From positions 1 through 64,000 of the IMG/VR virus record IMGVR_UViG_3300031730_000002: a stretch of DNA of 64,000 bases. One strand, 5' to 3'. Under the pieces are notes generated by a model, which had not been told where the DNA came from, made no database searches, and saw only the letters and a program-made list of their open reading frames with translations. Within the stretch, counting starts at the first letter, position 1. Each line of letters opens with the position of its first letter. Source of the stretch: a virus. Position numbers and translations under genes: made by a program. This document shows, piece after piece, positions 4,390-58,295 of this stretch.

Positions 4390-6049
4390 GGGTCACTTCG
4401 AGCGCATTCGCGCGGCTGTGCAGAAAGAGTATGGCCTCGGTACTGTGCCGGAGTGGATCTGCAAGCACACAAAGCTGGGTGGCAAGCCCTACAGCTACAA
4501 GAATCACGAGTTTCAGCTGCAGATTCTGCGTGATCAGAGCCCTGAGAAGATCATTCGCAAGTGCTCACAGGTCGGTTTGACCGAGTTGAGCTTCCGCGAG
4601 GTGCTCGCGATACTGCGAATCATCGACGGCTTTACCGCGATTTACACCATGCCGAGTGCCACTGACATGGCAAAAGTGGTGCAAACACGCCTCGATCCGA
4701 TCGTGACAGGCAGTGCTGACCTGACATATGCGCTCTCTTCGAGCGTGGATTCGGCCATCGTGAAGCAGTTTGGCCTCAGTTTTCTCCATTTGTCGGGTAC
4801 TTTTGGCCAACAGCAGGCCATTTCAGTGCCTGCGGACATGGTTGTGCACGATGAGGTCGATTTCAGCAATTTGAAGGTGCTGACGACCTACGAGTCACGA
4901 CTCACGCACAGCAAGTACAAGATGCGGCGCGAGTTCTCGACTCCGACGCTGCCAGGGCGCGGGATCTCAGCCCGATTCGATCGATCGCGCCGCCATTTCA
5001 ATATGGTGAAGTGCCATCGCTGCAATCACTGGTTTTTGCCCGACTATTACCTGCATGTGAGGGTGCCGGGGTACGACGACGACCTGAAACTGATCACCAA
5101 CCGCAATCTGCACCACTACGACTGGCGGCATGCGGCGCTGCACTGCCCGCACTGCGCTGGAATTCCGAGCTTGCAGCACGAGAACCGCAACTGGGTGCTC
5201 GAAAATCAGAATGAGAACTACACCGCGGCAGGGTATGCGGTGTCCCCATTCGACGCGCCTAACATCATCTCGACTCCGTTCCTGGTGGAGAAGTCGACAA
5301 AGTACGAGCGCATTGCCGACTTCGTCAATTTCAATCTCGGGCAGCCGTATGAGGACGCGACAGTAAGCCTGACCGACTCATTCCTGCGTAGTTTGTTCGT
5401 GCCAGGCAGCCCACCAACGAGTAGTGCCAATTTCATGGGCATCGACATGGGCGCTTTGTGCCATATCGTTGTCGGGAATGCCCAATCGACCGGCGAGTTG
5501 GTGGTTTTGCACTACGAGCGGGTGACTTTGGCCGATTTCGAGCGGCGCAAACGCGAGCTTGCGATCGAGTATCGAGTGCTTGTGACGGTGATGGATGCCT
5601 TGCCGTATACCGACATGGTAATGCGGCTGCAAATTAGCGACCCGAATTTGTTCGGTGCGATCTATCTCGACATGAAGAATATCGTCACCTATGCGGTGAA
5701 GGACCAGCGAAAAGACCCTGAGAAGGGCAAGTTGAACATCCGGCAGGTGCAAATCAACCGGAATGTGGCATTCGACGACATGGTGCAGTCGATTATTCGG
5801 CGCGAGGTGGTGTTTTTCGACCGACCGGAGAAGGACATCTTCATTGCGCACCTGTTGGACATGAAGCGGCAGACAGTATCGGACTCGAATGGTGAGCTGG
5901 TGTACAAGTGGATTAAGTCGGAGCAGGGGGACGACCACTTCATGCATGCGATGATGTATCTCTACACCGCGTGCAAGCTGCGGGCGCTGACGACGGGCAG
6001 TGCGCCGATTCAGACGCTGATTTCGAGCTTCAGGGTCAAAACCATGTGA
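4382..6049 (+). CDS. terminase large subunit (GpA-like)
   Basis: ATP-driven DNA packaging motor and nuclease that cuts concatemers and fills proheads through the portal. 555 residues. The ATP site resembles lambda gpA: a deviant Walker A (KCSQVGLTE, 60-68) with lysine at its start instead of before Thr, and Walker B MVVHDE at 153-158. Two CxxC pairs (C211/C214 and C255/C258) form a likely zinc site seen in GpA-type proteins. The nuclease domain shows the expected acidic residues D355 (GIDMG), D405 (VMDALPYT) and D517/518 (GDDHFMHA). GpA-type terminases usually make cohesive ends. Followed by a 67-base gap, then portal. Confidence 0.92.
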   Translation: MFEGHFERIRAAVQKEYGLGTVPEWICKHTKLGGKPYSYKNHEFQLQILRDQSPEKIIRKCSQVGLTELSFREVLAILRIIDGFTAIYTMPSATDMAKVVQTRLDPIVTGSADLTYALSSSVDSAIVKQFGLSFLHLSGTFGQQQAISVPADMVVHDEVDFSNLKVLTTYESRLTHSKYKMRREFSTPTLPGRGISARFDRSRRHFNMVKCHRCNHWFLPDYYLHVRVPGYDDDLKLITNRNLHHYDWRHAALHCPHCAGIPSLQHENRNWVLENQNENYTAAGYAVSPFDAPNIISTPFLVEKSTKYERIADFVNFNLGQPYEDATVSLTDSFLRSLFVPGSPPTSSANFMGIDMGALCHIVVGNAQSTGELVVLHYERVTLADFERRKRELAIEYRVLVTVMDALPYTDMVMRLQISDPNLFGAIYLDMKNIVTYAVKDQRKDPEKGKLNIRQVQINRNVAFDDMVQSIIRREVVFFDRPEKDIFIAHLLDMKRQTVSDSNGELVYKWIKSEQGDDHFMHAMMYLYTACKLRALTTGSAPIQTLISSFRVKTM

Positions 6050-6116
6050 TGTTCCACGTGAAGCAGTCTTCTCCCGCTATAGCCTTTCCCATCGGCTTCT
6101 GCAATACTCCCTGCCC

Positions 6117-7637
6117 ATGAACCTGCTCGACAAACTCACCTCCTTTCTGGCGCCCAAGCCAACGGCATGGGACGGGGTGGTGACGGAAGCGGCGAGCACG
6201 GCGCTGCCGGTGCAGGCGCCGCCGAAGGTCAAGCCCAAGCAGCAGTCGGTGCCGCCGTTCTCGCCGCAGGTCAAGCCGGGCGAGGCCGTGCTGGTCAAGG
6301 CCGACCGGCAGCTGGCCAACACGGACATCCTCAGCTACCGGCGCAGCGCGACGACGGGCGCGACGCTGCGCGACTTGGTGGTGGCAAGCCCCGACCTGTC
6401 GGCGGCGGTCTCGGCCAACTTGCGGCTGGGCATCACCGAGAGCTACATCCTGAAGGCGTGGAATCCGGACGGCAGCTTCAACGCCGACGCGACGCGGCTG
6501 GCCTACCAGCTGCTCATGCGCATGGACCTGGTGCCGGACTACACGCAGGGCTTCAACGTCACGAACAGCTTGCTGGCCACGTCGGAGGCGCTGGCCAAGG
6601 ACATGATGACCTACGGCGCCATGGCGATGGAGCTGGTGCTCGACTCGTCGCGCCTGCCGGCGCAGTTCGTGCCGCTGAGCAGCAGCCAGATCTTTTTCTT
6701 CCCTGAAGACAAGGGTGTGCGGCCGGTGCAGCGGATCGCTGGTGTCGACATCGACATGGACCAGCCGACGTTCTTCTACCTCTCGCTCGATCAGGACTTG
6801 CTGACCGCCTACGCCACGTCGCCGCTCGAAGCAGCGATTCAGCCGGTGCTGGCCGACAGCGAGTTCACGAACGACATGCGCCGGGTGATCAAGCGCGCGG
6901 CGTTCCCGCGGCTGGACGTGGAGATCGACGATGAGCTGATGCGCCAGTCGATCCCGCCCGAGATCTTGAACGACCCGGTGAAGCTGACCGACTACCGCAA
7001 CACAGTCACTCGGGCAGTGTCCGACGTGGTCAACGGGCTGGCGCCGGAAGATGCGCTGGTGCACTACAGCTTCCTGAAGGTCAGCTACATCGAGGGTGGC
7101 ACAGGCCCGGTCGAGCAGACGTTCCAGGGTGTGCAGGATCTGATCAACGCCAAGCTGTCGACCGGTGCGAAGGTTCTGCCGAGCGTGCTGGGTCATGGCA
7201 GTGGCAGCCAGAACGTCGCGAGCAGCGAGACGCTGCTGTCGATGAAGACGGCAGACGGCCAGATCCGCCGCAAGCTCAACGAGATGTACAGCAAGGCGTT
7301 CACGCTGGCTGTGCGCCTGTTCGGCATGGACGTGTGTGTCGAGTTCACCTACCGCCCGATCAACCTGCGCCCGACCATCGAGGTCGAGGCGTTCGAAGCG
7401 CAGCGGCAGGCTCGGATTCTGGAGCTGCTGTCGGTGGGCATGATGGGTGACGAAGAGGCTTGCCTGGAGCTGACCGGCAACTTGCCGCCGGCAGGGTTCA
7501 AGCCGCTGTCGGGCACGATGTTCTACAAAGCCGATGCTTCAGTGCCGGCCGGCTCGGAAAGCTCGACCACCGGCGGCTTGAACCAGGCGATCACGAGCGA
7601 TGCGCCGAAGGGCAAGCGCGGAGGCAACGGCAAATGA
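6117..7637 (+). CDS. portal protein
   Basis: 506 residues, directly after the terminase and two to five genes before the protease and capsid genes, the usual place of the portal. It should form the dodecameric ring at one prohead vertex through which DNA enters and leaves. The sequence shows the helical, acidic stem-and-wing character of portals, including an N-terminal region on antirepeat helices (about 60-140) and a central part with many aromatic residues. The C-terminus is a low-complexity basic tail (PKGKRGGNGK). No clear ribosome-binding site precedes the ATG. Family assignment is by context and overall look, not by a short motif. Confidence 0.82.
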   Translation: MNLLDKLTSFLAPKPTAWDGVVTEAASTALPVQAPPKVKPKQQSVPPFSPQVKPGEAVLVKADRQLANTDILSYRRSATTGATLRDLVVASPDLSAAVSANLRLGITESYILKAWNPDGSFNADATRLAYQLLMRMDLVPDYTQGFNVTNSLLATSEALAKDMMTYGAMAMELVLDSSRLPAQFVPLSSSQIFFFPEDKGVRPVQRIAGVDIDMDQPTFFYLSLDQDLLTAYATSPLEAAIQPVLADSEFTNDMRRVIKRAAFPRLDVEIDDELMRQSIPPEILNDPVKLTDYRNTVTRAVSDVVNGLAPEDALVHYSFLKVSYIEGGTGPVEQTFQGVQDLINAKLSTGAKVLPSVLGHGSGSQNVASSETLLSMKTADGQIRRKLNEMYSKAFTLAVRLFGMDVCVEFTYRPINLRPTIEVEAFEAQRQARILELLSVGMMGDEEACLELTGNLPPAGFKPLSGTMFYKADASVPAGSESSTTGGLNQAITSDAPKGKRGGNGK

Positions 7638-19238: not shown

Positions 19239-20459
19239 ATGCCGACGCTTGCCTCAACCAGTCGTGTCCAGCTGGCCTACATTCTGGAGTCGGTCTTTGG
19301 CACGACGCCGGGCGCCGGCAACGGCAGCTACCTGCGTTGCACCGGGGAGTCGATGGACTTCGCGGTCACGAAAGAGACCTCCAAGGAGCTGCGCTCCGAT
19401 CGTCAGCTGTCGAGCGTTGTGCCGGTATCGGCGCAGGGATCGGGCGGCTTCAACTTCCACCTGAACTACGCCGAGTACGATCCGTTCCTGCAGTCGCTGC
19501 TGCAGAACGCGCCGACCGTGTTCGGCACCAATGGCGAGTCGGCCGGCGCATCGGTGGTGACCTTCGCTACCGGCACGCTGACCGCCAGCGTGGCGACGGC
19601 CGGCGCAGACAGCTGGGCTACCTTGCAGCTGGGCCAGTTTTTCCAGGTCAGTGCGACCGGCGACGCCAACGATCTTAAGGTGCTGCGGGTCTCGACCACC
19701 GTCGCCCCGACCACCACCGTCATCACGCTCGATGCGGGCACGCCAGCCGTCGCCAGTGTTGCAGTGGCGGGCGTCAAGCTGCGGGCCGCGCGCTTCACCA
19801 ACGGCGTGACGCAGACCAGCTTCACCATCGAGCGCCAGTCGCCCGACGTGACGCAGGTGCTGACCTACCGCGGCATGACCCCCAGCAAGATGTCGCTCAA
19901 GTTCGAGGCTGCGGCGCTGACCGATGGCTCGTTCGAGTTCATCGGCAAGGGTGCCACGCGTGGCACCGCGACGGCACTGCCCGGCACGCTGGTCGCATCG
20001 AAGACCTACGACATCCACAACGCAGCGTCCGGCATCGGCCTGGTGTGGGAAGCTGGCGTGCCGCTGGTTTCGACCTTCATCAAGAGCCTGTCGCTCGACT
20101 ACGACAACAACCACCGCGCGCAGCAAGCCATCGGCATCCTGGGTCTGGTGGGCGTCGGCTCGGGCACCATCCAGTTCAAGGCCACGATGGAGATGTACTT
20201 CGCTGACGGTGCGATGTACGACAAGTTCCTGGCCAACACCTACACCTCGCTGGCAGTGTCGTCGATCGACTCCACCGGCGCGGGCTACGTCTTCAGCTTC
20301 CCGAAGGTCAACTTCATGTCGTCGAAGATCGTCGCCGGTGCGAAGGACCAAGACCTGATGGCCAGCTTCGAAGTGATGATGGTGGCCGACGACAGCAACG
20401 CGGTTCCCGCGCTGCGCAAGACGATCTTCATCGATCGCGTCGGCCCGGCGGTTCCGTAA
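19239..20459 (+). CDS. major tail tube protein
   Basis: 406 residues, resembling the Phage_tube_2 family: an N-terminal part with VQLAYILESVFGTTP and GESMDFAVTKETSKELR, then long beta-rich regions. Many copies polymerise as hexameric rings to make the tail tube. Residues about 95-180 look like an inserted Thr/Val/Ala-rich beta domain. It has an own upstream promoter and a strong downstream terminator, consistent with high expression. Confidence 0.82.
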   Translation: MPTLASTSRVQLAYILESVFGTTPGAGNGSYLRCTGESMDFAVTKETSKELRSDRQLSSVVPVSAQGSGGFNFHLNYAEYDPFLQSLLQNAPTVFGTNGESAGASVVTFATGTLTASVATAGADSWATLQLGQFFQVSATGDANDLKVLRVSTTVAPTTTVITLDAGTPAVASVAVAGVKLRAARFTNGVTQTSFTIERQSPDVTQVLTYRGMTPSKMSLKFEAAALTDGSFEFIGKGATRGTATALPGTLVASKTYDIHNAASGIGLVWEAGVPLVSTFIKSLSLDYDNNHRAQQAIGILGLVGVGSGTIQFKATMEMYFADGAMYDKFLANTYTSLAVSSIDSTGAGYVFSFPKVNFMSSKIVAGAKDQDLMASFEVMMVADDSNAVPALRKTIFIDRVGPAVP

Positions 20460-20509: not shown

Positions 20510-20537
20510 TTGACACTATTACCAACGCTGCTATATT
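20510..20537 (+). promoter_or_regulatory. strong sigma70-like promoter before tail chaperones
   Basis: TTGACA (20510-20515), 16-base spacer, TATATT (20532-20537). Close to consensus. Directly follows a terminator, so the tail assembly genes from 20560 on can be transcribed as a separate unit. Confidence 0.65.
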
Positions 20538-20559: not shown

Positions 20560-20952
20560 ATGGACATCGGCAAAGAATTCACCACCGACCTCGGCAAAGA
20601 AGAGGACGGTGTGCCCGTTGAGTTGGGTGATGCGACGCTGATCATCGCGCGCACCTCGACCGACGCCTACGAAAAGATGGTCGACAGTCTGTTCAAGAAG
20701 CACAAGAAGGTGCTCGACATGAAGAACAAGGCCTCGAAGACCCTCTCCGACAATCTGATGGCTGAAGTCGTTGGCAGCACGGTACTGAAGGGCTGGAGTG
20801 GCGTGACCGAGAACGGCGTCGAGTTGCCCTTCAGCAAAGAGAATGCGATTCGCCTGAGCCGCATCAAGGACTTCCGGGCCTTCGTGATGTCGAAGGCCAG
20901 TGACTTCGAGCTGTACAAGCTGGCAGTCGAGGAAGAAGTCACGGGAAACTGA
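20560..20952 (+). CDS. tail assembly chaperone G
   Basis: 130-residue protein starting at an ATG with CTGGAG upstream. Equivalent in position, size and downstream frameshift site to lambda gpG, which with gpG-T coats the tape measure before tube polymerisation. Helical, charged sequence, ending EEEVTGN. The stop codon at 20950-20952 immediately follows the slippery heptamer at 20943-20949. Confidence 0.85.
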   Translation: MDIGKEFTTDLGKEEDGVPVELGDATLIIARTSTDAYEKMVDSLFKKHKKVLDMKNKASKTLSDNLMAEVVGSTVLKGWSGVTENGVELPFSKENAIRLSRIKDFRAFVMSKASDFELYKLAVEEEVTGN

Positions 20953-36584: not shown

Positions 36585-36818
36585 TCAAAAGCTCGACGTT
36601 GGCACCGGATCTGCTCTACCCTTCCGAAGCGCCCACGCCCGCACACCGTCAAGCAGCACCCACACGCCAGCCCCGAAGGGCTTGACGTACTGCTCCCCCT
36701 CCAGCCAGAGGCCCTTGTGGATGCGCTGGTAGATCGTGTTGGCGTTCTCTCCCGAGATCTCGCAGTAGCGCTTGAGCGGCAAGCCGCCCAAGCGCTCGAC
36801 TGCCTCGTTCGGAGTCAC
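36585..36818 (-). CDS. excisionase-like HTH DNA-binding protein, 77 aa
   Basis: GTG start overlapping the SbcC stop (GTGA). The pattern GLPLKRYCEISGENANTIYQRI followed by a wing (GEQYVKPFGAGVWVLL) is that of excisionase/MerR-type winged helices that recognise DNA. Because no integrase is present in the window, it is more likely a regulator or architectural protein than a real excisionase. Confidence 0.62.
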   Translation of the reverse strand: MTPNEAVERLGGLPLKRYCEISGENANTIYQRIHKGLWLEGEQYVKPFGAGVWVLLDGVRAWALRKGRADPVPTSSF

Positions 36819-38920
36819 AAGGACACCACCTGGCTTGCGAAGGCGTCGACCAGCGGGCTGTGCGTCACCAGCAGCGTCTGATCGAAGCCGGCCGATGCCA
36901 CCAAGCCCAGCATGTTGGTCTCGCGCTCATCGTCGCAGGCCGCCCCCGGCTCATCGAGCATGAGGAAGCGGGCGTTCGGCAGGAAGGTCTTGGTGAGGGC
37001 GATTCGGATCGCGAGCCCGAGCGCATCGAGCGTCGAGCCCGAGAGCCCGCCCACGTCCTGCCCATCGGCCTTGAAGCCGCCGTCTGTGCGGGTGATCACC
37101 GACTGCACGCCACGAACCGACGAGAAGTAGCTGCTCACCGACGCCAGCACGATCGTCCACAGCTTGTCGGAGATCGCCGGCCGCGCGCCGCGCAGCTTCT
37201 TGATAAGCGCGTTGTTCCGGTTCATGGCTGCGAGCCGATCCCGTGCAGTGTCGAGCTGGACCTGCAGGGTGTGGCGCTGCTGTACCCGCTGGGCGTGCAG
37301 CTGCAGCTTGTGCTCCATCTCGACCCGCTTGGCGTCGAGCGCAGCCTTCACGTCGCGGATCTCGTCGCCCAGCACGCGCACACGGTGCTCCAGCGCGTCG
37401 CCAGCGTCGAGCCGAGCCTTGGCCAGCACCGCGGCAGCTTCGAGGCCTTCCTGCGCCGCCTGCAAGGCCGCCAGCTGCCCTTGCAGTGCTGAGAGCTGCC
37501 GTTCGCTGGCCGCCTTGTCCGACGCCGAGCTGAAGTATGCGCGGTGCTCGGCCTCAGCCCTGGCGATCAGCTCGGCGTAGGCCGGTCGTTCGCCAGCGGC
37601 TTGCGGCACTTCGCCTTTCCACTTCCAGCTGTGTGGCACCTGATCGTCAGCGATCTCTATGTAGGCACTATGCTTCCCTATTGCCCGCTCGTATGCGGTC
37701 GCCTGCTGGTCGAGTAGCAACAGCTCATCATATTCAGCCTTAGTGCCGGCATAGGCTGTCTCACAAGCCAACACAGCCGTGTCGATCTCAGCCACTTCAG
37801 CATTCACTGCGATGTTGCGCTGCACGACTTCAGGCACCGATGCCAGATCCTTGTCACAGAAGGCACAGGTCTGTTCTTTGACCAGGCCTGCGACCACAGT
37901 AGCGCGGCGAGTAAGCAGGGCGTTGTTCTGGTTGATTAAGTTGTTGACCGTCTGCAGTGAATCCTTGAGCGCTTCTGCCAATGAGGCACGACTACCAGCC
38001 CACACCAGTTCAGGCACAGGCAGGTTGTGCAGCTGGCCATAGGCCGTCAGCGCAGCGTCCTCCTGCACGCGGCTGAACAGCGCCTTGCGCCAGTCCTCGA
38101 CCTGCTCCTGCGTGGTGGTCGGCTGGATGAGCAGGCGCACAGTGGCCGGTAGCACTTCGGAGATCCGTAGCGACACCTGATCGGCGTCGCGCACGCCCGC
38201 GGCGGCGTCGACGATGGCCTTCCGCGCGTCGCCGAGCGCCAGGGCATTCAGCTCTGTCGACTTGAGCTTCTGCTCTTCGTAGGCCGCGCCCATGCGGCTG
38301 TTGAGCGCGTCGATCTCGATCTCCATCGCCGCCGTGTCCAGCGGCTCAACCGCCGCAGCTTCGAGCTGGCCAGCCAGCGTGGCCAGCTGAGTCTCGACAT
38401 CCTTCGTCGCGCCGGTGGGCAGGTCGTGCTGCACCATCTCCACGATCCGGTCGATGAGGTTGAAGTCGGCCAACGTCTCGATCAGCGCCGCCGCCTCGCT
38501 CGGGCCGCCGGCCAGCGCACCACGCAGCGCACCTTGCGACGCGAGCATCATCTTGCTGGCTGTGTCGGCAGTGGTGCCCAACAGGTTCTCGCAGAAGCGA
38601 GTGACTTCGGTCTGGCCAGTGACCTTGCCGCCAGCGTAGTTCAGCTCGGCACCGGACTTCTTGCGCACGATCGTGTAGCTCACGCCATCGAAGTGGAATG
38701 CAAGCTCGATGCGCAGCGCGCTCTCGGGCTGGCCCCACGTCACGCATCGGTCGAGCGGCTGGCGCAAGGCGCGGAAGCCGAACAGCGCAGCTGCAAGCGC
38801 TTCCTGGACCGTGGTCTTCCCGGCTTCATTCAAGCCGCGGATGGCCACAAGGCCTTGGGCAAAGTTGATGGTCAGATCTTCGTGCTTGCGGAAGAACTTG
38901 AGAGTGAGACGATCAAACAT
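36815..38920 (-). CDS. SbcC/Rad50-like ATPase (T4 gp46-like)
   Basis: 701 residues. Walker A GLNEAGKT at 29-36 and Walker B FLMLDEP at 652-658 form an ABC-type ATPase head from N- and C-terminal parts. Between them are long coiled coils and the zinc-hook motif CAFC (C352-C355), at the apex. With SbcD (next gene) it makes a nuclease that processes double-strand ends and drives recombination-dependent replication. Overlaps the SbcD gene by 8 bases and the HTH gene by 4. Confidence 0.9.
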   Translation of the reverse strand: MFDRLTLKFFRKHEDLTINFAQGLVAIRGLNEAGKTTVQEALAAALFGFRALRQPLDRCVTWGQPESALRIELAFHFDGVSYTIVRKKSGAELNYAGGKVTGQTEVTRFCENLLGTTADTASKMMLASQGALRGALAGGPSEAAALIETLADFNLIDRIVEMVQHDLPTGATKDVETQLATLAGQLEAAAVEPLDTAAMEIEIDALNSRMGAAYEEQKLKSTELNALALGDARKAIVDAAAGVRDADQVSLRISEVLPATVRLLIQPTTTQEQVEDWRKALFSRVQEDAALTAYGQLHNLPVPELVWAGSRASLAEALKDSLQTVNNLINQNNALLTRRATVVAGLVKEQTCAFCDKDLASVPEVVQRNIAVNAEVAEIDTAVLACETAYAGTKAEYDELLLLDQQATAYERAIGKHSAYIEIADDQVPHSWKWKGEVPQAAGERPAYAELIARAEAEHRAYFSSASDKAASERQLSALQGQLAALQAAQEGLEAAAVLAKARLDAGDALEHRVRVLGDEIRDVKAALDAKRVEMEHKLQLHAQRVQQRHTLQVQLDTARDRLAAMNRNNALIKKLRGARPAISDKLWTIVLASVSSYFSSVRGVQSVITRTDGGFKADGQDVGGLSGSTLDALGLAIRIALTKTFLPNARFLMLDEPGAACDDERETNMLGLVASAGFDQTLLVTHSPLVDAFASQVVSL

Positions 38921-39965
38921 TGTTGTGCTTCTCCAGCAGCGCAGTCACGGTGGCGCGCTCTTCTTCGTTGAGGATCTTCAGCAGCTCTTCGAGCACCGAG
39001 AATGAGCGGATCTGTTCGAGCGAGACCTGCAGCGATTCGCCGTCGTTGGTTCCTTCGACTTCGACAGCGTTGGTGATGACCAGCGATTCGCTGTGCTTGC
39101 GGAAGCTGGAGATCGCGGTGATCACGTCCGAGGCCTGTGCCGCCGTCGCCTTGCCGACCACACGCACGAAGTCGGTGATGCCAAGCGGCTGCAGCATCTG
39201 CCAGTCCAGCTCAGCGAAGCAGCCTTCGCGAGTCCACGTTGGCAGCCACTCGATGCCAGAGTCCGTGATGCGCAAGGCGTACTTCATGTCGTTGCCGAGA
39301 CAGTCGGCCACGCTGCTCGGCACCTGGTTGCCGACGATGAGGACTTTGTTGTCCAGGTACTCTCGGCGCTGGTGCTCGTGCGCCACGATGATCTTCTCGA
39401 CCTTCAGCGTGGCAGCCTGCTCCAGCGACAGGTTCAGCGAGTGGTCCGACTTCGCCGCAAAGTTGTTCGACACGTTGCAGTGCAGGAATAGGTACTTCGT
39501 GTCGGCCGGCACCTTGCTCAGCTCCAGCTCGAACAGGTCTTGGTTGGCCACGTGTGGGATGACGTACACGCCTTCGTCAATCGTGGTGCCTTCCTTGATC
39601 ACGACCACTTGGCCAGGGAAGCTCAAGGACAACAACTCGCAGAGGATGTCGAAGCTCGACAGCACAGCCGAGTTTTTCGTCATGTCGTGGTTGCCGCGAG
39701 AAGCGTAGAGGGTAGGCACCGGCTTGTATGAGCACTCCAGCCACGCTGCGGTGATCTTGTAGATTTGCAGTAAGTCGCTCAGCGGGATCGCTGCGGTGTC
39801 GAGCCAGTCGCCGTTGATCAGCACGTCGTCGGTGCCGGCCATATCGAGCAGACCGCCGTAGTCGGCGAGCAGGTTGGCTCGTAGTTGCATCGCTGTGGCC
39901 GGCGTGGTGCCGCCGGTGCGGATCGCACCGAGGTGCAGATCGTTGATGTGGAAGAGGGGCTTCAC
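38913..39965 (-). CDS. SbcD/Mre11-like nuclease (T4 gp47-like)
   Basis: 350 residues, starting at a GTG that overlaps the upstream stop (GTGA), with GAAGG before it. Contains the calcineurin-type metallophosphoesterase motifs in order: DLHLG, NGDWLD, RGNHD, HCNVSN and AHEHQ. These bind two metal ions for 3'-5' exonuclease and endonuclease activity. Works with the SbcC-like ATPase encoded next. Confidence 0.9.
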   Translation of the reverse strand: MKPLFHINDLHLGAIRTGGTTPATAMQLRANLLADYGGLLDMAGTDDVLINGDWLDTAAIPLSDLLQIYKITAAWLECSYKPVPTLYASRGNHDMTKNSAVLSSFDILCELLSLSFPGQVVVIKEGTTIDEGVYVIPHVANQDLFELELSKVPADTKYLFLHCNVSNNFAAKSDHSLNLSLEQAATLKVEKIIVAHEHQRREYLDNKVLIVGNQVPSSVADCLGNDMKYALRITDSGIEWLPTWTREGCFAELDWQMLQPLGITDFVRVVGKATAAQASDVITAISSFRKHSESLVITNAVEVEGTNDGESLQVSLEQIRSFSVLEELLKILNEEERATVTALLEKHNNV

Positions 39966-56059: not shown

Positions 56060-56425
56060 TCAGACCTTCAGGCGCAAGGCGTCTTTGAGGGGTTCGAACA
56101 GAACAGTCTGCTGCGGGTGCGCGTCGAGGAAGGCGCTGAAGCGCTTGATGGGCATCGTTGCAGCGGCGATGCCGAGAGTGAGACGACCGAGCGGGAAGTT
56201 GGAGTAGCCACACACCCACAGCGCCTCGCGGCTGTACCGCACATAGTCGTCAGGCGGGCCACCTGCACCAGACATGAGCCACATCAAATTGAATGCGCCG
56301 ATGTCTTCGGGATAGCACAAACCCCAGCCTACCAAGTGCTTGCCTTCGCGCTGGATGTAGTAGGTGGGGTGCACCGGCGACCAGTACGGTCGGGTGATTT
56401 GCAAGAGGAAGTCGGAGAATTCCAT
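56060..56425 (-). CDS. hypothetical protein, 121 aa
   Basis: Ribosome-binding site AAAGGA at 56440-56435. Begins MEFSDFLLQITRPYWSPVHP; aromatic and glycine-rich with helical C-terminus. It precedes the helicase gene by one base between stop and start. No family recognised. An imperfect GAGGGC/GCCCTC hairpin lies just upstream (56468-56487). Confidence 0.57.
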   Translation of the reverse strand: MEFSDFLLQITRPYWSPVHPTYYIQREGKHLVGWGLCYPEDIGAFNLMWLMSGAGGPPDDYVRYSREALWVCGYSNFPLGRLTLGIAAATMPIKRFSAFLDAHPQQTVLFEPLKDALRLKV

Positions 56426-56501
56426 GCGCGTGATCCTTTCTAAGAGGGGATGATTCTGTCGTAAAGTGAGGGCCGGATCAAGCCCTCGTAAACGTGAATT
56501 T

Positions 56502-56726
56502 TTAGCGGAAGCGTGGGTAGTCTTCGTTGTGGGTTGGGTCGTCTTCCTCAGCCTCGACGCAGGCGTTGTACAGCACCTTGCTGCACGGCTGGTTGTCGAA
56601 CTCGTGGTACATCCAGATCACGTACTTCGGATCGATCTCGGCGATCTCACTCGGCGTCTTGCCGTTGTGCTTGCCGAAGTCGAGTGGTGTATGGTCAAGC
56701 TCTTCATCGCGTGTCTTGAACTTCAC
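56502..56726 (-). CDS. DUF3820-like small protein, 74 aa
   Basis: GTG start with CAGGAG upstream. The segment PLDFGKHNGKTPSEIAEIDP and WMYHEF resembles the DUF3820 domain that is also the C-terminus of the DEDDh exonuclease at 49042. Here it stands alone and could act as a partner or regulator of exonuclease. Its start region abuts the divergent H-NS-like promoter. Confidence 0.65.
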   Translation of the reverse strand: MKFKTRDEELDHTPLDFGKHNGKTPSEIAEIDPKYVIWMYHEFDNQPCSKVLYNACVEAEEDDPTHNEDYPRFR

Positions 56727-56738
56727 TGTCTTCTCCTG

Positions 56739-56767
56739 TTGACAAACTTACTAACTCTGTCTACTAT
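56739..56767 (+). promoter_or_regulatory. near-consensus promoter of the H-NS-like gene
   Basis: TTGACA (56739-56744), 17-base spacer, TACTAT (56762-56767). Exact -35, five of six in -10, ideal spacing. It is the only plus-strand promoter in the minus-strand half and points to the gene at 56824. Confidence 0.85.
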
Positions 56768-56779
56768 TCGCATGCGCTG

Positions 56780-56795
56780 TGAGTAGCGCTACTCA
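56780..56795. promoter_or_regulatory. 16-bp perfect palindrome (operator candidate)
   Basis: TGAGTAGCGCTACTCA is identical to its reverse complement. It starts 12 bases after the -10 box, in the expected early transcribed region, where a dimeric repressor would block the promoter. Confidence 0.7.
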
Positions 56796-56823
56796 ACCCA
56801 CTTACTGAACAAGGAACAATGTC

Positions 56824-57147
56824 ATGTCCATTCTCGACGAAATCGCAACCCTGAAGAAGCAGCTCGATGAAAAGATGGCTGCGGCCGAAGTCGAACTCCG
56901 TGCGCAGAAGTCCGGCGTCATCGCCGAGATCCTGGCGCACATGAAAGAGAACGGCGTCTCGCTCAAGGATCTGAACGCTGCGGCTCTCGTCGCCGCCAGC
57001 AAGTACAGCTCGGGCACGAAGACCTGGTCGGGCAAAGGCAAGCAGCCGGCTTGGCTGGTCGCGGGCATCGCTGCCGGCGCCACGCTCGACTCGTTCCTGA
57101 CGCACAAGGTGGCCAACGCCGCCGCTGCCGAACCGGCCTCAGCGTAA
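56824..57147 (+). CDS. H-NS-like nucleoid protein
   Basis: 107 residues. N-terminal coiled-coil dimerisation part (about 1-42), linker, and the H-NS-type DNA-binding motif YSSGTKTWSGKGKQPAWL (61-78), matching the pattern TWxGxGxxPxWL; the C-terminus ends in an Ala-rich tail. H-NS silences AT-rich foreign DNA, and phage-encoded relatives can counter or imitate host silencing. AAGGA ribosome-binding site. It is the only plus-strand gene in the replication half and has its own promoter, palindrome and terminator. Confidence 0.85.
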   Translation: MSILDEIATLKKQLDEKMAAAEVELRAQKSGVIAEILAHMKENGVSLKDLNAAALVAASKYSSGTKTWSGKGKQPAWLVAGIAAGATLDSFLTHKVANAAAAEPASA

Positions 57148-57148
57148 G

Positions 57149-57406
57149 CTACGCCGCTCGCTGCAAGGCCGCCTCCGGGCGGCCTTTTTCGTGTCTGAAA
57201 CGATCCCACATCAGCAGGTGCCGGAACTGGCTGCGGTCGTTGATGCCCATGCGCTTGCGAATCCGCAGCATGTGGGCCTCCGCAGTCTTCACTGCCATGC
57301 CCAGCTCTCGGGCCGCGGCCTTGCTGCCGCCCCACAGGATCACCGTGTCCATCAGCTGCTCTTCGCGTGGGGTCAAGCCCCAAGGGTTACTCTTCTTCTT
57401 GGTCAT
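57149..57406 (-). CDS. LuxR-type HTH regulator, 85 aa
   Basis: Residues about 10-70 show the GerE/LuxR helix-turn-helix (LTPREEQLMDTVIL, then AARELGMAVKTAEAHMLRIRKRMG). No receiver or autoinducer domain, so a DNA-binding regulator only. Its stop lies one base from the H-NS-like gene's stop on the other strand, and the H-NS terminator is inside its 3' coding part. It overlaps the Toprim gene by 20 bases. Confidence 0.82.
   Translation of the reverse strand: MTKKKSNPWGLTPREEQLMDTVILWGGSKAAARELGMAVKTAEAHMLRIRKRMGINDRSQFRHLLMWDRFRHEKGRPEAALQRAA
57165..57189 (+). terminator. terminator of the H-NS-like gene
   Basis: GGCCGCC (57167-57173), 4-base loop, GGCGGCC (57178-57184), then TTTTT. An excellent stem with T-run, located within the coding end of the convergent LuxR-type gene. 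Confidence 0.85.
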
Positions 57407-58295
57407 TCATCCACTCCGCGGCGTCAGCGATCTTCGCCTTGCCTTCTTCGATTTCCTGCTCGCGGGCTTCCCAAGCGTCTCGATCGATCAGCTCTTCAAG
57501 ATGCTCGACAATCATGCCGTCCATCTCGACAGGTGACAGAGCATCAAGCTCCCACGACTCGTCGCCGTGGACCTGCTCGTACTCCTTGAAGCGTGAGTCG
57601 GTCTGTTTGGCTGGGTTGGGTGGCAAGTCGCGCTCGTCGACCTGCTCGCGGTTAAGCGCGATGCGACGAAAATCGATGCTCAGGTTCGGCGTGTCGTGGT
57701 TGGCGAAGAGGTTGAAGCGCTGCTCCAGGTCTCGGCTCATGTCGATGCCACTGGGGTCATGGTCACCGAGGTGCAGGATCACCAGCTCTTGCTTCGCCTT
57801 CGACGCCTTGTAGAAGTAGCTCTGCACGATCTCACGCAAGATCGTGACGCTGGGGTAACCACGCGCCGCGAGGTAGGGCACGTCCCACTTCGTGCAGGTA
57901 CGGTCGATCACGCCGGCGAGAGCTTCCTTCTCCACCACGACCAGCACGCGCATCTTCTGCGTGGCCCACATGTCCATGTGAAACTGATCGGCGCAAGCCT
58001 CGACGATGCTCGATGCTGAAGACCACGATGCCTGCTGCACCAGATCTCGGGTGCGGTCTTCGATCGCCTCCCAGTCCAGCAGACCGGCCAGCCGGGCGTT
58101 GTTGCCCAGCATCGTGATGCGCTTGTAGCTCTCGACCGTATTGGGTATCCAGTCCTTCGCGACCAACTGGTAGTAGAGCTGGCGCATCGTCAGCCGATAG
58201 CCTTGCTTCTGGTAGGTGTCGATAATCGCCGTCATGCGCGAGATCATTGCTAGCGACTCGGGCTTGAATTTCGTGTGTTCGTAGGCTTGCTTCAA
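57387..58295 (-). CDS. Toprim-domain (topoisomerase VI A-like) protein
   Basis: 302 residues, with TTG start in a TTGA overlap and AAGGA seven bases upstream. An N-terminal winged-helix-like part (about 15-75, RLTMRQLYYQL) precedes a Toprim fold with VEKEA (about 121-125) and GDHDPSG (177-183), supplying the acidic metal-binding residues. Similar phage proteins are related to Spo11/TopoVI-A and may cut or relax DNA. The characteristic catalytic tyrosine of topoisomerases is not identifiable. Confidence 0.75.
   Translation of the reverse strand: MKQAYEHTKFKPESLAMISRMTAIIDTYQKQGYRLTMRQLYYQLVAKDWIPNTVESYKRITMLGNNARLAGLLDWEAIEDRTRDLVQQASWSSASSIVEACADQFHMDMWATQKMRVLVVVEKEALAGVIDRTCTKWDVPYLAARGYPSVTILREIVQSYFYKASKAKQELVILHLGDHDPSGIDMSRDLEQRFNLFANHDTPNLSIDFRRIALNREQVDERDLPPNPAKQTDSRFKEYEQVHGDESWELDALSPVEMDGMIVEHLEELIDRDAWEAREQEIEEGKAKIADAAEWMNDQEEE

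Follow-up and report, generated by a model that had tools for sequence, protein, structure and literature searches.

A lone gene against a one-directional block

Why should a phage carry an H-NS-family gene that faces against the block of genes around it, and what would such a gene do during infection? We addressed this question in a 64,000-nucleotide stretch, here called the window, which covers positions 1 to 64,000 of the 85,865-bp IMG/VR virus record IMGVR_UViG_3300031730_000002. Our best explanation, which we place somewhat short of an even chance, is that this lineage of 86-kb tailed phages has a stand-alone H-NS paralogue unit, uncoupled in timing from the block, whose product would mix with host H-NS and reset silencing. 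The features of the locus are as follows:

56502 to 56726, minus strand: divergent neighbour with an ExoX-like C-terminal domain
56739 to 56767, plus strand: predicted sigma70 promoter TTGACA-17-TACTAT, 10/12 consensus match
56780 to 56795, no strand: perfect 16-bp palindrome TGAGTAGCGCTACTCA, candidate operator, starting 12 bp downstream of the -10 element
56811 to 56815, plus strand: ribosome-binding site AAGGA, ending 8 bp upstream of the ATG
56824 to 57147, plus strand: H-NS-family ORF of 107 aa with an ATG start
57149 to 57406, minus strand: convergent neighbour of 85 aa with a GerE (LuxR-type) HTH
57165 to 57190, plus strand: intrinsic terminator, stem at 57165-57186 with 9 pairs, then a T-run (z -2.6)
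57387 to 58295, minus strand: DNA topoisomerase-like protein (phrog_6247)

Our home-made codon-bias caller found 87 genes in the window, arranged as 7 on the minus strand, 36 on the plus strand, and then 43 on the minus strand with the H-NS gene as the one strand-opposed call among them. An earlier reading made from the sequence only (hereafter the sequence-only reading) had described one plus-strand gene in a 27-kb block read only on the minus strand. The lone reversal held but the length did not, as the block runs from 36585 to the end of the record at 85865 and comprises 43 + 68, or about 111, minus calls, a few of which may be double-counted at piece borders. Orientation counts rest on the window-trained model, which was correct throughout three annotated control stretches (plus/minus calls of 35/0 in L004, 29/0 in L140, and 19/0 in L002). 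Models trained on small pieces can flip strands (5/21 in the annotated control L004, 6/47 in the record piece L036, and 16/32 in L038 from the relative G011 described below), and their strand calls at other loci were set aside.

Profile-confirmed genes of the minus block include DNA polymerase, primase, helicase, topoisomerase, thymidylate synthase, MazG, and SbcC/D-like genes; the terminase is located in the plus block. The SbcC/SbcD-like nuclease pair (36815-38920 and 38913-39965) carries the PHROG name "palindrome specific endonuclease". Tyrosine integrase, the only integrase type searched for, was found neither in this record nor in G011, and the window gave no tRNA or Rfam match. Among the matches listed, the terminase shares 29-31% identity with Vibrio phages and the primase 27-30% with Pseudomonas and Vibrio phages; the topoisomerase is closer to named phages, at up to 55% identity to Pseudomonas phages. 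In a 22-kb stretch around the primase of phage Lana, all 30 annotated features run in the same direction, and none is named H-NS.

The same layout in a distant relative

Scans of IMG/VR with the primase (12 loci) and the topoisomerase (2 loci) gave 14 records related to the window. The H-NS DNA-binding domain PF00816 was over the cut-off in 2 of the resulting 15 records, several of which are fragments: the window's own and G011. A third record has a 12-bit match below the cut-off. G011 was the only relative obtained when the helicase and the G011 H-NS protein were used as scan queries, and the window H-NS protein as a query of viral and genome contigs found no relative.

At E 1e-5, 30 of the 87 window genes have a match in G011, whose gene order largely follows that of the window, with identities of 67% for the helicase, 60% for the primase, 51% for the ExoX-C neighbour, and 43% for the H-NS protein. 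The region is syntenic: the two genes that flank the H-NS gene in the window (58292 and 56502) have homologues that also flank the G011 copy, with the ExoX-C homologue on the same side of it. Extra genes lie on opposite sides of the H-NS gene in the two phages: the topoisomerase and LuxR-type genes in the window, neither with a match found in G011, and in G011, towards ExoX-C, three other ORFs, with the ExoX-C homologue about 1.4 kb from the H-NS gene and other ORFs between. In relatives without H-NS, we did not find this conserved flanking pair together at the locus. Again, the H-NS gene is the sole gene against its block, opposed by 69 + 32 + 12 = 113 calls. It also has its own strong stem with a T-rich tail (z -7.5), although this element is absent from the pattern-scan terminator list.

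The DNA-binding domain family, the layout, the place, and the reversed orientation are thus kept in a second phage, while the control sequences are not. The insulated arrangement proposed from the sequence is supported in the window and, as one gene with its own terminator against the block, also in a syntenic relative. A lone reversed orientation in two largely collinear phages, with an own terminator in both, suggests separate control. That place and orientation persist while protein and control sequences diverge further suggests that selection keeps this separate control, and the retention of the arrangement in so distant a relative hints that separate timing of the H-NS protein is important to the virus.

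The LuxR-type neighbour had been put forward as a possible binder of the palindrome. We found no support for this role: the protein has no match in L015 (E 0.05) or in the G011 pieces (E 1e-5), G011 being possibly incomplete, and no conserved partnership was seen that would make it a dedicated partner of the H-NS gene.

An H-NS-family protein with a basic-poor linker

The H-NS-family ORF has a coding score of 41 under the codon model of the window. The expectation that it encodes an H-NS-like protein was borne out for its C-terminal domain, which matches PF00816 at E 2.1e-9 and 37.4 bits (Pfam cut-off 25.6); the G011 copy matches the same family at E 1e-10. The N-terminal part matches PF22470 over residues 16-53 at E 9e-4, below the Pfam cut-off, and in the G011 copy no Pfam match to an N-terminal H-NS domain was obtained at E 0.1. 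A profile built from six phage copies matches the solved DNA-binding domains of Ler (E 1e-7), StpA, the H-NS protein 2l92, and H-NS. We also made an AlphaFold2 model on a six-row alignment (mean pLDDT 80, pTM 0.45), which has helices at residues 3-42 and 47-58. The predicted architecture is a long N-terminal helix and a second helix followed by the C-terminal DNA-binding domain. The best Foldseek matches of the modelled C-terminal part are Salmonella H-NS (2l93) and Ler (2lev), at probability 0.90 with weak E-values of 0.4-0.6, and structure comparison of this part (VIA) gave Z 4.1 and 3.4 for these matches, the former over 42 residues.

Two features bear on how tightly the protein would hold DNA. 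At the AT-hook-like position, where H-NS has Q/RGR, both the window protein and the G011 copy read KGK. The motif counts among 117 homologues from phage and genome contigs were 99 RGK, 10 RGR, 4 KGK, 3 KGR, and 1 RGL, biased by the recruitment of many of these homologues with a pattern demanding [RK]GK and by the inclusion of some duplicates. The linker is poor in basic residues as well: the 30 residues before the conserved W contain 4 K/R in the window protein and 3 in the G011 copy, against a median of 7 (range 3-11) in 97 genome-contig proteins, 6 of which are as basic-poor as the window protein. The Q/RGR motif and linker charge have been described as parts of H-NS DNA binding, and the review concerned regards positive linker residues as probably aiding it (PMC6936261). 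Judged from these residues, both features would be expected to lower DNA affinity.

An anti-silencer would be one use of such a protein: it would pair with host H-NS through its N-terminal helices and bind DNA poorly, so that the mixed filaments would not work and AT-rich genes of the phage or the host would be released. The KGK motif and the basic-poor linker of both phages, part of the latter predicted helical in the window protein (47-58), argue for this reading, as does the probable assistance of linker residues in DNA binding (PMC6936261). We nevertheless consider it unlikely. Both copies score above the Pfam cut-off for the DNA-binding domain, 6 of the 97 genome-contig homologues are equally low in basic residues, and a phage of 61% GC offers few AT-rich stretches on which such a release could act. 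The retained domain also sets the window protein apart from H-NS antagonists of the kind that lack one. H-NST and the T7 gp5.5-kind proteins are comparable as mobile-element proteins that act on host H-NS (PMC3097231, PMC7074111), but the similarity of H-NST is described as N-terminal only (PMC7074111) and the gp5.5-kind phage proteins as having the oligomerisation domain only (PMC3097231). The silencer reading is favoured over the anti-silencer one.

Predicted control signals of the unit

The near-consensus promoter, the perfect palindrome just after it, and the strong terminator named in the sequence-only reading were all found, and differ in how far they exceed chance. The promoter is the sole sigma70 site in 56300-57700, where shuffles average 0.4, so the match by itself is not beyond chance; the whole record has 8 sites scoring ≥10/12 on both strands. 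The best of the record, TTGACA-16-TATATT (11/12), is at 20510-20537 on the plus strand of the window, in an AT-rich gap before a gene called at 20560 in the plus-strand block. The terminator of the H-NS gene overlaps the convergent LuxR-type gene, lying within its 3' end.

If the transcript started at 56774, as the sequence-only reading supposed, the palindrome would span about +7 to +22. A perfect palindrome arose in 2 of 5000 shuffles of the 97-bp gap upstream of the H-NS gene, and palindromes with arms ≥8 number 4 in the window against 1.75 expected (20 simulations); it is thus beyond chance for its gap and unsurprising somewhere in the window. Neither the window nor the whole record has a second copy within 3 mismatches, and a phage-wide operator was rejected on this ground. 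An RNA hairpin was also rejected, as shuffled sequences fold as well as the leader (z -0.17), and this result leans towards a DNA site. A perfect 18-bp palindrome, GGTGCCACGCGTGGCACC, was seen elsewhere at 19950-19967, within the gene called at 19239-20459.

The region upstream of the H-NS gene has an 80-bp segment at 42.5% GC (61% for the record), tied second to fourth AT-richest among the separate segments of the record. In G011 the corresponding region is the second AT-richest 80-bp segment, at 40% GC. AT-rich DNA is the kind bound by H-NS. The sequences of promoter and palindrome are both not conserved in G011, where the best promoter candidate upstream of the H-NS gene is weak (8/12) and the upstream repeats GTTAGGG/CCCTAAC differ from the palindrome of the window and, equalled by 43 of 2000 shuffles, are weak evidence. 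For the window unit, an AT-rich promoter followed by a palindrome hints at autoregulation and at a repressor that binds as a dimer, and the proposal that the gene is on at once after infection unless repressor-bound is a plausible reading of the predicted promoter and palindrome.

Alternatively, the protein could act mainly on phage DNA, either by compaction or as a brake on the block convergent and divergent to its gene. The H-NS gene does lie among replication-type genes and has an AT-rich promoter, and its antisense position could reduce read-through. The palindrome is unrepeated in the record, so there is no phage-wide site of that kind, but this objection is weak, as H-NS itself needs no such site. 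We regard an action mainly on phage DNA as improbable.

Other phage copies and known systems

Phage-encoded H-NS is already known. A 2011 report presented EPV1 (EBPR podovirus 1) as the first case of an H-NS in a phage and proposed that it damps CRISPR and restriction loci (PMC3097231). A 2020 review gives EPV1 as its one phage copy of the H-NS family, lists Lsr2 homologues for other phages, and describes phage-encoded H-NS as still without experimental evidence (PMC7074111). EPV1 gp43 resembles the window protein in being a phage H-NS-family protein with both halves, the N-terminal half of the window protein being a putative one, and the two share 31% identity. The EPV1 gene runs with its neighbours, however, whereas the window gene runs against them. 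EPV1 was inferred to be lysogenic from its integrase, in contrast to the window phage and the tyrosine integrase result above, and its H-NS is 47% identical to that of the host (PMC3097231), while the best sampled cellular match of the window protein is at about 40% over most of its length.

We compared a sample of 13 further stand-alone phage H-NS genes (L002, which is EPV1, L023, L025, L030, L033, L124, L125, L127, L133, L136, L137, L138, and L139), leaving out ParB-H-NS fusions and a 213-aa protein in L027. Under the window-trained model, all 13 copies among the matches listed have at least one immediate neighbour in the same direction and none is alone against both neighbours, a test that the G011 copy passes. 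Weaker cases among them are L023, L033, and L133 (contig starts with one side seen) and L127 (one opposed neighbour), and L137 and L138 are near-copies. Since 0 of these 13 show the lone reversed layout, it is a trait of the window/G011 lineage among the copies listed. No lone reversed H-NS unit in phages appeared in the titles and abstract openings among the matches listed, which take in few subscription journals.

Silencer homologues carried by mobile elements also include Sfh, Pmr, and Acr2 (PMC7074111), which are plasmid-borne, whereas the window gene is on a lytic-type phage. The same review credits horizontally acquired homologues such as Sfh, Pmr, and Hfp with a modulating effect on part of the host silencer's regulon (PMC7074111). 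In a tblastn search with the window H-NS protein, 508 of 72,556 plasmid records had matches, with identities of 31-38% among the matches listed.

Origin of the gene

The coding sequence of the H-NS gene has 63% GC and a GC3 of 0.81, within the 0.74-0.83 of four other phage genes, and this fit in codon use argues against a fresh arrival. Among the cellular proteins sampled, the best matches reach about 40% when most of the length is aligned, and identity is higher only across stretches of 31-41 residues. A tree of 73 sequences, left from 110 after similar genome-contig rows were removed, has too few columns; in it the window and G011 copies fall, together with named rows that are mostly betaproteobacterial, in an unresolved fork (support 86/84). 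Taken together, the distant cellular matches, the unresolved tree, and the phage-like composition indicate that the gene is probably an old resident of the phage.

A phage moron is a gene of host origin that is carried along passively and brings its own signals. The window unit is similar in that a single gene, oriented against its neighbours, has a predicted promoter and terminator to itself. Morons have a foreign base composition, whereas this gene matches the phage. A moron without effect on infection, although consistent with those signals and with a search of 14 other records in which 13 gave no match over the cut-off, is very doubtful given that the region and orientation were kept while the proteins diverged to 43% and that codon use matches the phage.

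A proposed separately controlled silencer paralogue

In the silencer explanation, host RNA polymerase would read the H-NS gene from its own promoter, and the promoter, the terminator, and the reversed orientation would uncouple its timing from the large opposed block. A dimeric repressor at the palindrome may limit the dose, as may binding of the AT-rich promoter by the H-NS product. The product would then mix with host H-NS on AT-rich DNA, as expected from known family biology for a protein predicted to have both halves of H-NS, and reset silencing during infection. The DNA kept in check would most likely be AT-rich host loci such as defence islands, as proposed for EPV1, together with the phage's own AT-rich promoters.

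Several findings count against this silencer explanation: the promoter is within chance and neither promoter nor operator sequence is conserved; the basic-poor linker and KGK occur in both phages; the gene is over the cut-off in 2 of 15 records, several of them fragments; and the N-terminal match is sub-threshold in the window and absent in G011 at E 0.1. A more specific form is a dedicated switch, in which a basic-poor-linker H-NS set against a whole early-type block, with its own swappable operator, would form a mixed host-phage silencer before or independently of the block and retune host silencing in lytic infection. We offer this form only as a minority possibility. Phage-encoded H-NS has been a hypothesis since EPV1 (2011), to which a second phage lineage is now added, and the unit, small and self-contained, offers a way to test if phages reinforce host silencing or disrupt it.

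Other H-NS-domain proteins

Matches named "Acinetobacter phage" were set aside as evidence from phages, as the flanks of the one inspected are bacterial chromosome. This record, CAKLQH020000023.1 (L003, named "Acinetobacter phage MD-2021a"), holds hemC, trpE, and pulD in the inspected stretch and looks like host DNA at least there. The L027 protein left out above (5476-6117, 213 aa) has a C-terminal H-NS domain at E 1.7e-17 and an N-terminal part without a Pfam match at E 0.1. ParB-type partition proteins of about 620-830 aa with a C-terminal H-NS DNA-binding domain were found in the IMG/VR contigs L024 (3994-6117) and L031 (4279-6213), with ParB_N and PF00816 both over the cut-off, and further fusions were judged by reading in L026, L028, L029, L032, L034, L129, L131, L132, and L134. 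Such a fusion may be a partition protein that also binds AT-rich DNA.
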